IMG/VR virus record: IMGVR_UViG_3300042339_000574
Location: 1-34,365 of that record
Reading direction: 5' to 3' (one strand)
Source: a virus
Length of the DNA stretch: 34,365 nucleotides
Position 1 is the stretch's first letter; each line of letters begins with the position of its first letter. Made by a program: the position numbers and the translations under genes. Below, in pieces: positions 23,756 to 33,921 of the stretch. Below the pieces are notes generated by a model. It did no database searches. It was not told the DNA's origin and saw only the letters and a program-made list of their open reading frames with translations.

Positions 23756-23821
23756 TCTAACCCAGGCGCGAGTATGACTCTAAGTGCCGACCAACCTAGG
23801 GAGTGGAGTTACCCGGTTATT

Positions 23822-23893
23822 ATGAAAACAGAAAAATTGAATGTGTGCCGTTTCCTTATTGCTTTGGAATGTGAGAGCCGCCCTAACGCCTAG
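23822..23893 (+). CDS. Possible 23-residue peptide
   Basis: ATG to TAG encodes MKTEKLNVCRFLIALECESR plus three residues. It sits inside the terminator-bounded RNA. It could be a leader peptide controlling the following terminator or a chance frame; an A-rich stretch directly follows the ATG. I cannot tell which. Confidence 0.25.
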   Translation: MKTEKLNVCRFLIALECESRPNA

Positions 23894-23907
23894 CAAGCAG
23901 GTCCAAT

Positions 23908-23942
23908 GGGAGAGTACCGAAAGAAACCTCTCCCTTTTTTTT
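23908..23942 (+). terminator. Strong intrinsic terminator
   Basis: GGGAGAG (23908-23914) pairs with CTCTCCC (23928-23934), followed by eight T (23935-23942). It lies 20 nt before the next gene. Confidence 0.88.
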
Positions 23943-23961
23943 AACCTTCAAAAATTACACA

Positions 23962-24183
23962 ATGTTATTTGCTAAACTTTTATTCATTATAAAACTACAC
24001 ACAGGTTTTATAATACCGTCATCAGATGTTGATGGACGAATCATTTACTCTATACCAACTGAATGTATTGAGTATGCTTATCAAGCAGAGATAATTCAGT
24101 ATTTAAAAACAGGAGTGTTTAAGTATGATGACACACTAGACGATCCAGTTACACCATTAGAAACAATAACCCTAAACCATTAA
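23962..24183 (+). CDS. Small hypothetical protein
   Basis: 73 residues. A hydrophobic N-terminus (LLFIIKLHTGFIIP) is followed by an acidic helical part ending TITLNH. No family is recognised. The leader AACCTTCAAAAATTACACA before the ATG is one of the conserved AACCCTTAAAAA-type leaders. It precedes the HExxH protein gene by 2 nt. Confidence 0.6.
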   Translation: MLFAKLLFIIKLHTGFIIPSSDVDGRIIYSIPTECIEYAYQAEIIQYLKTGVFKYDDTLDDPVTPLETITLNH

Positions 24184-24185
24184 GT

Positions 24186-24674
24186 ATGAAAACAATAACC
24201 TTACTTTTAATATCTCTAATAGTTATTCTTGTTTGTGTAATGATAATTACTAAGAAAAGAATGCCAGTGAGTATTGAGTCAATTGACCGTGGACAATATG
24301 AATTACTATTAGGCTGTGATGCTAGGCAAGTGTTCTTACATTATCGCGTGACAAGTATGCATGGACTATCTCTTTCAGGAGCAGAAGATAGAATCGCTGA
24401 AGGTGGATCGTATATTGACGGTCTATGCAACTACCATCCAAGAGATAAAAATCTTGACAAAAGTCCTTTACCTTTTTTATTCCTAAACATTAATAGTTTA
24501 CAAAATAACTATAGTAATCATGAAGTCTATACCTGCATAATGCATGAGTGTATGCACATGGCCGGTAAGTTATATGATGGCTGTTGGGATTCACATGAAG
24601 AAGAAATGGTAACATGGGCGGAAGAAGAAGCTAATGAAATCATATTGCTCTTACAGAAAAAGAAATACATTTAA
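24186..24674 (+). CDS. Membrane-anchored HExxH (zincin-like) protein
   Basis: 162 residues. A single N-terminal membrane helix (LLLISLIVILVCVMIIT, about 6-22) anchors a domain with several Cys and Tyr. Near the C-terminus IMHECMHMAGKLYDGCWDSH (118-137) contains HExxH at 120-124, followed by EEEMVTWAEEEANEI, where one Glu may be the third zinc ligand. The N-terminus-in topology would place the domain outside the cytoplasm. It may be a protease acting at the cell envelope. It shares only the motif arrangement, not obvious sequence, with the HEMLH protein at 19695-20171. Confidence 0.7.
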   Translation: MKTITLLLISLIVILVCVMIITKKRMPVSIESIDRGQYELLLGCDARQVFLHYRVTSMHGLSLSGAEDRIAEGGSYIDGLCNYHPRDKNLDKSPLPFLFLNINSLQNNYSNHEVYTCIMHECMHMAGKLYDGCWDSHEEEMVTWAEEEANEIILLLQKKKYI

Positions 24675-24680
24675 ATCATA

Positions 24681-24752
24681 AGTATAGTAAGCTCAACTGG
24701 TAGAGCTGTAGCAACACTGCTATGTGTGTGGGTTCGATTCCCTCCTATACTT
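24681..24752 (+). tRNA. tRNA-like element with abnormal anticodon arm
   Basis: Acceptor AGTATAG (24681-24687) pairs perfectly with CTATACT (24745-24751). The D arm has AGCTC/GAGCT around AACTGGTA. The T arm has GTGGG/CCCTC with the loop TTCGATT and one T-T mismatch, and the variable loop is 5 nt. The anticodon stem TAGCA/TGCTA encloses only ACAC (4 nt) instead of seven, so no anticodon can be assigned. CCA is not encoded. It is probably a decayed or non-decoding tRNA, possibly a processing signal in the mRNA. Confidence 0.55.
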
Positions 24753-24774
24753 CTAACCCCTAAAAATAATTCCA

Positions 24775-24849
24775 ATGAAGGAAATAGTAATCACCGTATT
24801 GTTAATGGCATTGTTCTATTCACAGTACATATTAAATCAGAAGAGATGA
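24775..24849 (+). CDS. 24-residue membrane peptide
   Basis: Encodes MKEIVITVLLMALFYSQYIL plus NQKR, one transmembrane segment with a basic end. It is preceded by the conserved leader TAACCCCTAAAAATAATTCC, and its TGA overlaps the ATG of the next gene (ATGA). Both facts favour a real gene despite its size. Confidence 0.6.
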   Translation: MKEIVITVLLMALFYSQYILNQKR

Positions 24850-25145
24850 GTGAAGGAAAACGTAAAATCAATCAAGCCTTTAGAGCTTTAAGAAGCAAAG
24901 GTTATTTTGCACGCCAGAACTTTTGGTGTTGTAATACATGCGGTTGGCATGCTGTACCAGATGATAAAGCCGACAAGGCTGTATTCTACCATGAACAAGC
25001 AGCAGCTAATCTTAAAGAAGATGGCGAGTGCTGGCTTTCTTGGTCAGGTGACGGTAATGAAATTGTAAAAGTATTTCAAGATGCAGGAGTAACTGCTAAT
25101 TGGAATGGAGAGTCTAATCAAAAAATTCAAATCATACAGCCATGA
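24846..25145 (+). CDS. DUF6891-like protein
   Basis: 99 residues. The order GYFARQNFWCCNTCGWHAVP, then KAVFYHEQ, then LSWSGDGNEIVKVFQDAG, then a VTANWNG and QKIQI end, matches what I recall of the DUF6891 family, including the CCxxCG motif. Function is unknown; zinc binding is possible. I chose the ATG at 24846 because the longer frame back to 24726 begins inside the tRNA-like element. Its stop overlaps the next start by 4 nt. Confidence 0.75.
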   Translation: MSEGKRKINQAFRALRSKGYFARQNFWCCNTCGWHAVPDDKADKAVFYHEQAAANLKEDGECWLSWSGDGNEIVKVFQDAGVTANWNGESNQKIQIIQP

Positions 25146-25945
25146 AAGCATTTCAACCAGTAAAAACCCTTAGCAAAAATAAGGCAGGCATCGGTGATGT
25201 ATTCATCATTGAAGATATAAAAAGAACTGTTACCAATATCACTACGCAATATGTGTATATAGATAATGGTAAATATTACATGAAGAAAATGTTTAACCAA
25301 TGGATTCGTGTAGCTAATACTATAGCAGCAAGAGATACTCAATCTGAAATGAAGAACCTTGCATCTAGGCATAGAGAAATTGAAACAAGTATCATGCGCA
25401 AAGAAGCTAAGGCTGAGTACGATGAGAAGTATCGTGAGCCTGCAATCAATCGCATGGGTGCTGATACAACATTGAAACTATACATTGTTCTTACAGGTGT
25501 AGGTAGTACCATCAAGTTCTATTTCTCACCAACATTTAAGGCAGACATATATGATTTAGAAAAATCTTATAAGTCTTTGCATGGTACAGCGTATTCAGCA
25601 TTCGCATGGGGACATTACATTCAACATGGTCAACACATTGCATTGATAGGTATGAATCAGTACTTAGAAAGAAACCTTTCAGACGCACGCAAAGCTTTTG
25701 CTATGACGTGTTTAAGAAAAGAAACCATCAATGATTGCAAAGTCAATGTAAATTTATACAATGACATGTTTGAGCTATTCGGTGCTAAGGCTCCGGAATC
25801 TAAGTTACTATCATCACCAACAGAATCACCAAAGCCAACAGAAAAAAAACATTGGTCAGGACTCAATGGAGATATAGCAACAAGTCAAATTAATCAAGCA
25901 ATTGATAACATGTATCAAGATGACGAAACAGATTACCCATTTTAA
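25142..25945 (+). CDS. Hypothetical protein with SSB-like acidic C-terminal tip
   Basis: 267 residues. The N-terminal ~60 residues are beta-rich (GIGDVFIIEDIKRTVTNITT). A charged helical section follows to ~110, then a mixed domain around KLYIVLTGVGSTIKFYFSPT. From ~215 a Ser/Pro/Thr linker leads to an acidic end DNMYQDDETDYPF. The final DDETDYPF resembles the DDDIPF tip by which SSB recruits partners. It could be a phage ssDNA-binding protein or a mimic that draws SSB-interacting proteins. I cannot confirm an OB fold. Confidence 0.62.
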   Translation: MKAFQPVKTLSKNKAGIGDVFIIEDIKRTVTNITTQYVYIDNGKYYMKKMFNQWIRVANTIAARDTQSEMKNLASRHREIETSIMRKEAKAEYDEKYREPAINRMGADTTLKLYIVLTGVGSTIKFYFSPTFKADIYDLEKSYKSLHGTAYSAFAWGHYIQHGQHIALIGMNQYLERNLSDARKAFAMTCLRKETINDCKVNVNLYNDMFELFGAKAPESKLLSSPTESPKPTEKKHWSGLNGDIATSQINQAIDNMYQDDETDYPF

Positions 25946-33435: not shown

Positions 33436-33921
33436 ATGAATCACGCGCTGGTATGTAAAAATTATTACAAGAATAAAAAAAATGCAGTTGATGCTTTTGG
33501 TCTAGAATTTATAAGATTTGAATTATACTTTAATGCAGTACAAGCAAGAGATTCATACTATAATGCTATGAAATATCATGCAATACATGTAATGAAAGAG
33601 TTAATTCCAAGTATTACCCTTAAAGAAATAGGTAACATAGTTGACTTAGATCACTCAACAGTAATTCATTATTTAAAAAGATATACACCTCTAGACGGGC
33701 ATAAAGAGTTTATCAGTAAAAACTTTGAAAGGTACATAGAAAATCAAATTTATCCATTAAAACCAAGAAATAACAAAGATTTAGTAGAATATGGAGCATT
33801 TAAACCAACAAGCCTTGAAGAAGCCAAGTATTTCAGTAAGTCAGTTACTGAAAAAGAAGAAAGACCGGAGAAAAAAAGAGCTTATACCTCCTCTAAGAAA
33901 AACCCGGCTGAAAAATACTGA
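33436..33921 (+). CDS. DnaA domain IV-like DNA-binding protein
   Basis: 161 residues. Residues ~43-82 match the DnaA C-terminal origin-binding domain: an AMKYHAIHVMKELIPSITLK helix, then EIGNIVDLDHSTVIHYLKRY, where DHSTV aligns with the DHTTV signature of DnaA domain IV that contacts DnaA boxes. No AAA+ domain is present. The C-terminal ~60 residues are a basic, disordered tail. It may bind origin-like sites or compete with host DnaA. DnaA-box positions were not evaluated. Confidence 0.75.
   Translation: MNHALVCKNYYKNKKNAVDAFGLEFIRFELYFNAVQARDSYYNAMKYHAIHVMKELIPSITLKEIGNIVDLDHSTVIHYLKRYTPLDGHKEFISKNFERYIENQIYPLKPRNNKDLVEYGAFKPTSLEEAKYFSKSVTEKEERPEKKRAYTSSKKNPAEKY

Follow-up and report, generated by a model that had tools for sequence, protein, structure and literature searches.

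What purpose could a phage have for a gene that is shaped like a tRNA and cannot decode in the normal way? This question is raised by nucleotides 24681-24752 (+ strand) of the window, by which we mean the whole stretch of DNA analysed, a virus record of 34,365 bases. The terminase and portal proteins encoded there match PHROG families 6681 and 6547, and distant relatives of the terminase occur in Flavobacterium and crAss-like phages (22.9-24.6% identity among the best 30 of 123). Because of these matches and relatives, the window is treated here as a fragment of a crAss-like phage. Elsewhere in the window, a 161-aa protein (33436-33921) weakly resembles the C-terminal domain of DnaA, scoring under the curated cut-off.

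The initial annotation had placed a tRNA-like element at exactly these coordinates, and the tRNA profile bears this out: RF00005 matches the site on the + strand over its full length (model positions 1-71 of 71), the acceptor, D and T arms scoring 41.4 bits against a curated gathering score of 29 (E 1.3e-5 over the whole window). This is the best Rfam match at the element, overlapped by two weaker tRNA-clan matches that are unnamed in the output; outside the tRNA clan only RF00233 appears, at 14.5 bits and E 0.77 (cut-off 40). The minimum free energy fold of the window copy is unexceptional (z -1.41, with 20 of 200 shuffles equally good), so the evidence for the element is its tRNA profile together with its conservation. 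ARAGORN reports no tRNA in the window, and no second copy of the element was found in the window record.

The 72-nt gene, which encodes no CCA, has the acceptor, D and T arms that had been described. Its 5' acceptor strand, AGTATAG (24681-24687), pairs with CTATACT (24745-24751), which is followed by a discriminator T at 24752. The D arm (24690-24707) has a 5-bp stem, AGCTC/GAGCT, and the loop AACTGGTA; the reduced anticodon arm (24708-24723) consists of GTAGC, the loop AACACT (24713-24718) and GCTAT; the variable loop GTGT (24724-24727) counts 4 nt; and the T arm (24728-24744) reads GTGGG, TTCGATT, CCCTC, with a U-U mismatch at its second pair. These assignments follow from alignment, from fold and alignment for the D arm, and from fold, alignment and a check of registers for the anticodon arm. 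The three arms and the full-length profile match are what the element has in common with a canonical phage tRNA (RF00005), from which it differs in its D stem of 5 bp (one more than usual), its 4-nt variable loop and its 6-nt loop without U33.

A search with the 162-aa protein encoded upstream (24186-24674, + strand) led to eight related loci, five of which carry the element 316-422 nt downstream of the protein match, as two identical pairs and one single sequence; with the window, the number of distinct sequences is four. When viral_contigs was scanned with an exact pattern, the same five contigs came up, and the corresponding scan of genome_contigs gave none, so that elements of the window type are rare. 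Since these contigs come from five other data sets, the short loop is not an assembly error. Every copy shares one fold, made up of a 7-bp acceptor stem, a 2-nt linker, D and anticodon stems of 5 bp each, a 6-nt loop, a 4-nt variable loop, a 5-bp T stem and a single discriminator base. Within this fold the D loop is generally AACTGGTA and in L002/L003 AACTGGCA, the T loop is TTCGATT or TTCGACT, and the mismatched T-stem pair is U-U in the window and two other distinct sequences but A-U in that of L002/L003. The discriminator is T or G, a variation that argues against conserved charging, as far as sequence can tell.

The anticodon arm sets the element apart. In its conserved form it is a 5-bp stem, GTAGC/GCTAT, closed by the 6-nt loop AACA[C/A][T/C], which reads AACACT in the window, L004 and L005, AACAAC in L002 and L003, and AACAAT in L006. 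A tighter closure on the four nucleotides ACAC, as originally proposed, can form in the window; it is not the conserved form, however, as the additional A-U pair that it needs is available in the window, L005 and L006 and would be A-C in L003. In none of the three distinct loops does any register offer a 7-nt loop with U in second position (U33), which upholds the earlier view that normal decoding is excluded. The further suggestion that the loop might pair with the GTGTGTG that follows holds on paper, ACA and TGT both being invariant, but such pairing seems sterically unlikely because a single linker nucleotide would have to span the 5-bp stem.

Of the 72 positions, 3-7 differ between the window and the other distinct copies, and 1-6 among those other copies. 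At fourfold degenerate sites of the terminase large subunit gene (TerL), 61 of 239, 64 of 234 and 67 of 246 positions differ from the window (26-27%), and the element changes less in each of the three comparisons (Fisher p 2e-5, 1.4e-3 and 4e-4). The window has A-U at pair 1-71, where the remaining three distinct sequences have G-C; this is the only stem pair to have changed on both sides, and as the covariation over the whole element is equalled by 109 of 500 shuffles, support from covariation is thin. The five pairs of the lower stem never vary and show no compensatory change, stem and AACA being invariant in the four sequences. Intact loops were looked for at the orthologous loci in the five contigs; all of the loops are short, and the homologues keep every arm. 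Neither neutral drift nor loss of arms between relatives, the marks of a pseudogene, is thus seen here. Records as long as 117,346 and 114,200 bases contain no RF00005 match besides the element. Judged from these comparisons, it is a real tRNA-shaped RNA gene, preserved by selection and without normal decoding.

Its position between genes of one direction is as first reported: it starts 6 nt past the stop codon of the 162-aa gene and ends 22 nt before an ATG at 24775. No family match was found for the 162-aa protein. The ATG opens a 24-aa peptide ORF (24775-24849, +), read from the sequence and also present in L003, L005 and L006, in each case downstream of the element, and this is followed by a gene for a DUF6891 (PF21831) protein (24846-25145, +; E 4e-18), just 3' of the element, and by P0003 (25142-25945, +; 267 aa), which serves as a synteny marker. 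Searches of viral_contigs gave no relatives of the DUF6891 protein with the patterns used, and none of P0002. Neither a terminator-like site in 23801-25300 nor a promoter-like site within 500 nt upstream of the element was found; a Bacteroidetes-type promoter pattern occurs three times in the window (3.7 expected by chance) and not near the element. A gene that precedes the element in L003, L005 and L006 is missing from the window, where the element is kept nonetheless. Directly 5' of the element in L006 lies a structured RNA (L006:6741-6844) with a 15-bp closing stem and a fold z of -3.87, which the window, L003 and L005 lack.

The relatives of the window phage place the element in a wider setting. 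In G012 (TerL 89%, P0003 homologue 54%), a tRNA-like RNA is followed on the same strand by a CTCTCATCC RNA, three small ORFs with a 206-aa gene, and P0003; in L006 a single strand carries, in this order, the element, an RNA with the ends CTCTCATCC and CAAGGGTTGCAACCTTGTGAGAG, the 24-aa ORF and P0003. By this downstream order, on which the equivalence of the two slots rests, the slot matching the element is filled in G012 by a different tRNA-like RNA, of 85 nt, with a D arm that we label Gln-type and, when a stem of 5 bp is assumed, a loop of 20 nt. A relative of this RNA in L213 (record G069, TerL 54%) has D and lower arms that are nearly unchanged and a different acceptor and T stem. Between the two sequences, 7 of 24 pairs have changed on both sides and 97.9% of cells are paired, a result as good being reached by 5 of 500 shuffles, with at most two such pairs in slid controls; this one Gln-type family of two sequences therefore shows compensatory changes. 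Aberrant tRNA-like RNAs are not universal in the clade and are absent from most records of TerL relatives: tRNA matches occur in 7 of 49, and most of these matches have a normal anticodon according to ARAGORN. Many of the 49 are fragments, in which absence carries little weight.

The RNA that accompanies the tRNA-like RNAs in both records has conserved ends, CTCTCATCCAA(GC or TTGC)AGG and CAAGGGTTGCAACCTTGTGAGAG, and a variable middle, as at L006:7000-7086 (+) and L150:2438-2539 (-), and also in L153-L271. Its 3' motif is found in at least 120 stretches of viral_contigs and at least 130 times among the loci collected, with the exact 5' motif within 200 nt in 116 cases; among the matches listed, these 116 represent 80 distinct forms, with middles in 38 clusters. 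Conservation of the 3' motif is by construction, since it was the search pattern. Apart from tRNA (and the two unnamed, weaker tRNA-clan overlaps), Rfam finds nothing in the flanks of the element in L006, and in L158 a single match besides tRNA, at E 0.75. The cloverleaf-like CTCTCATCC...CAAGGGTTGCAACCTTGTGAGAG RNA may be a parallel scaffold with its own variable middle.

Records with this RNA also hold further tRNA-like RNAs of unusual layout. In 47 such records, chosen from the at least 120 stretches, there are 31 tRNA matches above cut-off (28 distinct sequences). A script looked, where the anticodon arm should lie, for a 7-nt loop containing U33 and closed by a stem with four or more of its five pairs formed: 22 matches show this in an ordinary tRNA layout, eight lack such a loop and L297 (106 nt) fits only loosely. 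The eight include L298, whose D arm is odd as well, and L303, a 67-nt RNA with the stem TCCT/AGGA and the loop AACA, which is followed, 75 nt further along the strand, by an ordinary tRNA-Arg. Model R1, run over 100 loci (L153-L252) and the 47 records, gave no further copy of the window type among the matches inspected, which comprised all except eight weak ones (E 0.05 or more) in one run and most weak ones in another; the top match with a shortened loop was L232/L303, and the others were ordinary tRNAs. A separate scan of the loci demanded an acceptor with all 7 bp formed, a T arm and a GG in the D arm, and several of its "odd" entries proved to be parsing artefacts of ordinary tRNAs.

The largest set of RNAs with an exchanged lower half is one that we call Leu-type, ARAGORN naming one such element tRNA-Leu. 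Its 24-nt 5' half, GTCAGGTGGCGRAATGGTAGACGC, occurs in at least 120 stretches of viral_contigs, and 137 times among the matches listed and other, partly overlapping loci. The matching T arm and acceptor 3' strand follow in 125 of these 137 occurrences, yielding 101 distinct elements among the matches listed; five of the other 12 lie at contig ends and seven depart from the pairing rule. Although the 3' half was outside the scan pattern, its pairing was demanded by the filter; the T-stem strand is ACAGG in 80 of the 101 elements and the acceptor strand CCTGACT in 85. In place of the anticodon and variable arms these elements carry hypervariable inserts of 23-130 nt, which form 84 clusters at E 1e-3, and only two of the 101, with an identical insert, have a canonical anticodon arm. 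LeuRS, an enzyme that does not depend on reading the anticodon, would be an obvious candidate for charging this scaffold. More than half of the element overlaps an ORF of 80 or more aa in 13 of 101 cases, versus 666 of 990 random positions. In 51 of the 101 cases the flanking ORFs are both co-directional; the elements therefore do not always lie within an operon. They are found in L365, L228, L299, L306-L424 and others, L365 having four scaffold starts in about 900 nt, and L388:2858-2982 is a variant in which the D loop, besides the lower arm, carries an insertion. A short hairpin motif resembling TGACRGCTCGGAAAGACGAGCAACAT often lies just 5' of a scaffold start or 3' of a tRNA-like element (e.g. 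L232:5699, L336:13733, L380, L425), and could be part of a processing RNA.

The inserts fold slightly more stably than shuffled sequences (mean z -0.65, with 28 of 84 below -1 and 5 of 84 above 1). In one family of three sequences the stem is 100% paired and two pairs occur in three types each, a covariation score reached by 11 of 500 shuffles and a count of such pairs reached by 53 of 500; the lower arm is conserved as a structure in this family. Weaker signs, of one or two such pairs in predicted folds, come from two other families. An extra hairpin resembling a T loop is present in 8 of 84 insert clusters (shuffles: mean 1.8, largest 5), and AACA loops are not enriched among the Leu-type inserts (1 of 101, shuffle mean 2.2). 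Matches of inserts to other sequence were found on the same strand for 10 of 101 and on the opposite strand for 15 of 101, versus 5-9 and 3-9 in three shuffles. An antisense role was considered and rejected: the long matches inspected were either to inserts of the same family in other versions of the scaffold or to reversed loci, hence no insert target was found.

At a cut-off of E 1e-3, 12 of 30 Leu-type records tested match the crAss TerL family phrog_6681, eight of them strongly, and so does one CTCTCATCC record tested alongside. The 5' half GTCAGGTGGCGRAATGGTAGACGC also occurs in four bacterial MAG contigs, two labelled Chitinophagaceae, one Neisseriaceae and one Helicobacteraceae; a search of annotated phages with one Leu-type element gave no record covering 80% of it. 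Taken at the level of sequence and predicted pairing, phages are shown to carry RNAs in which the upper half of a tRNA is kept and the lower half exchanged. An intact upper half with a non-anticodon element in place of the anticodon arm is what is found in the window, as in the others. The window element would belong to this class in design, and possibly in lineage as well; the tie to the long inserts comes from the shared design, the kinship of the phages and the slot in common with G012, and membership is by analogy because the arm in the window is reduced rather than enlarged.

We consider the chances about even that the element is a working gene whose product, a tRNA-shaped RNA, does not decode, the tRNA body being a scaffold for a non-decoding lower arm. 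As no promoter or terminator of its own was recognised, its transcription probably forms part of that of the surrounding operon. With acceptor and T arms intact, host RNase P and RNase Z would be able to excise it and CCA could be added, and the tRNA upper half would then give the mature RNA a stable, processable body. Where the anticodon would be, this RNA would present the reduced hairpin GUAGC-AACA[C/A][U/C]-GCUAU, which might bind a host or rival factor. The element would thereby be one case of a wider phage habit of swapping the anticodon arm on a tRNA upper half for other RNA, with arms ranging from short hairpins (window, L303) to the long variable inserts of the types that we label Leu, Gln and Arg.

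The main rival reading, which we regard as unlikely, takes the element for a processing signal that acts in cis: the operon mRNA would be cut at the tRNA-like fold by RNase P and RNase Z, which would separate the upstream and downstream genes and set their stability, and the anticodon arm, having no part in this, would be free to shrink. The tight fit between co-directional genes 6 nt past a stop codon agrees with it, as do the absence of terminator-like and promoter-like sites noted above, the intact acceptor and T arm, which are the parts that these enzymes read, and the retention of the element in the window despite the loss of the preceding gene. A processing signal leaves unexplained, however, why the lower stem and AACA are invariant in four sequences, why the lower arm is conserved in L118/L213 while acceptor and T stem are exchanged, and why Leu-type inserts vary as they do. 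Slightly more doubtful is a decoy or resistant mimic, an RNA that would occupy a tRNA-targeting nuclease or activator and offer it no anticodon loop to cut. Conservation of a non-decoding loop would suit such a role, and the available part of van den Berg 2023 (PMC10264068) proposes that phage tRNAs with mutated anticodon loops replace host tRNAs that have been cut and escape anticodon nucleases; the available parts of PMC11555353 and PMC13096335 report retron evasion by phage tRNAs and cleavage of the tRNA variable loop by Septu. Yet anticodon nucleases act on the anticodon loop, the very part that the element lacks, and a canonical loop is absent from every copy. The tRNAs of PMC10264068 resemble the element in being phage-encoded, with an altered anticodon loop and a possible link to defence; by that source, as far as its available text goes, a defence-resistant phage tRNA keeps its anticodon and has its cleavage site mutated, whereas the element has no readable anticodon.

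Two readings seem very improbable, and equally so. The initial annotation had raised a decaying tRNA, and the non-canonical loop, the T-stem mismatch and the single copy would fit a functionless relic; but changes in the element are rarer than at synonymous sites, which makes decay improbable, the loop has the same length in the window and all five contigs, and acceptor pair 1-71 has changed on both sides. A translating tRNA that decodes abnormally, by frameshifting or doublet reading, could be imagined from the tRNA-like upper half and a 6-nt loop one base short of the usual; against it, U33 is lacking, loop bases three to five differ between copies (CAC versus CAA) and the discriminator varies.

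Several known RNAs resemble parts of this picture. In tmRNA, the Y RNA YrlA and mascRNA, a tRNA-like upper half is joined to a non-standard lower half; at the element and in the L006 flanks, tRNA is the best Rfam match, accompanied in each case by two weaker, unnamed tRNA-clan matches. Ponchon and Dardel reportedly engineered a tRNA scaffold for recombinant RNA in which the upper half is kept and the anticodon arm replaced, a man-made design, whereas the phage RNAs described here are natural. PMC3753655 is a follow-up to the engineered scaffold. The Bacillus cereus pseudo-tRNA tRNAOther is, in the accessible portion of PMC3399842, a tRNA-like RNA acting outside translation; it is bacterial and has a Trp anticodon, while in the element the loop itself is lost. 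Theta ribozymes, self-cleaving HDV-like RNAs beside phage tRNA genes (PMC10879173, in its available part), are likewise structured RNAs adjoining phage tRNA genes; no ribozyme in Rfam matches the element or the L006 flanks, a result that applies to theta ribozymes only if Rfam covers them. No description of RNAs such as those reported here was found in titles and abstract openings of a literature sample with few subscription journals and preprints.

Returning to the scaffold reading, we suggest tentatively, and with less confidence than for the element itself, that crAss-like and other phages possess a natural tRNA-scaffold system whose fast-diversifying inserts bind host or competitor factors, with the window element as a short-arm member and the CTCTCATCC...CAAGGGTTGCAACCTTGTGAGAG RNA perhaps a parallel scaffold. 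Genes of this kind are missed or oddly labelled by ARAGORN, which for the elements discussed here gives nothing, tRNA-???, tRNA-Leu or tRNA-Pyl. The large natural set of inserts would supply RNA elements that have evolved within a tRNA body. If the scaffold reading is true, phages would have a further class of diversifying RNA, one founded on the tRNA fold, and non-decoding purposes of some phage 'tRNAs' would become testable.
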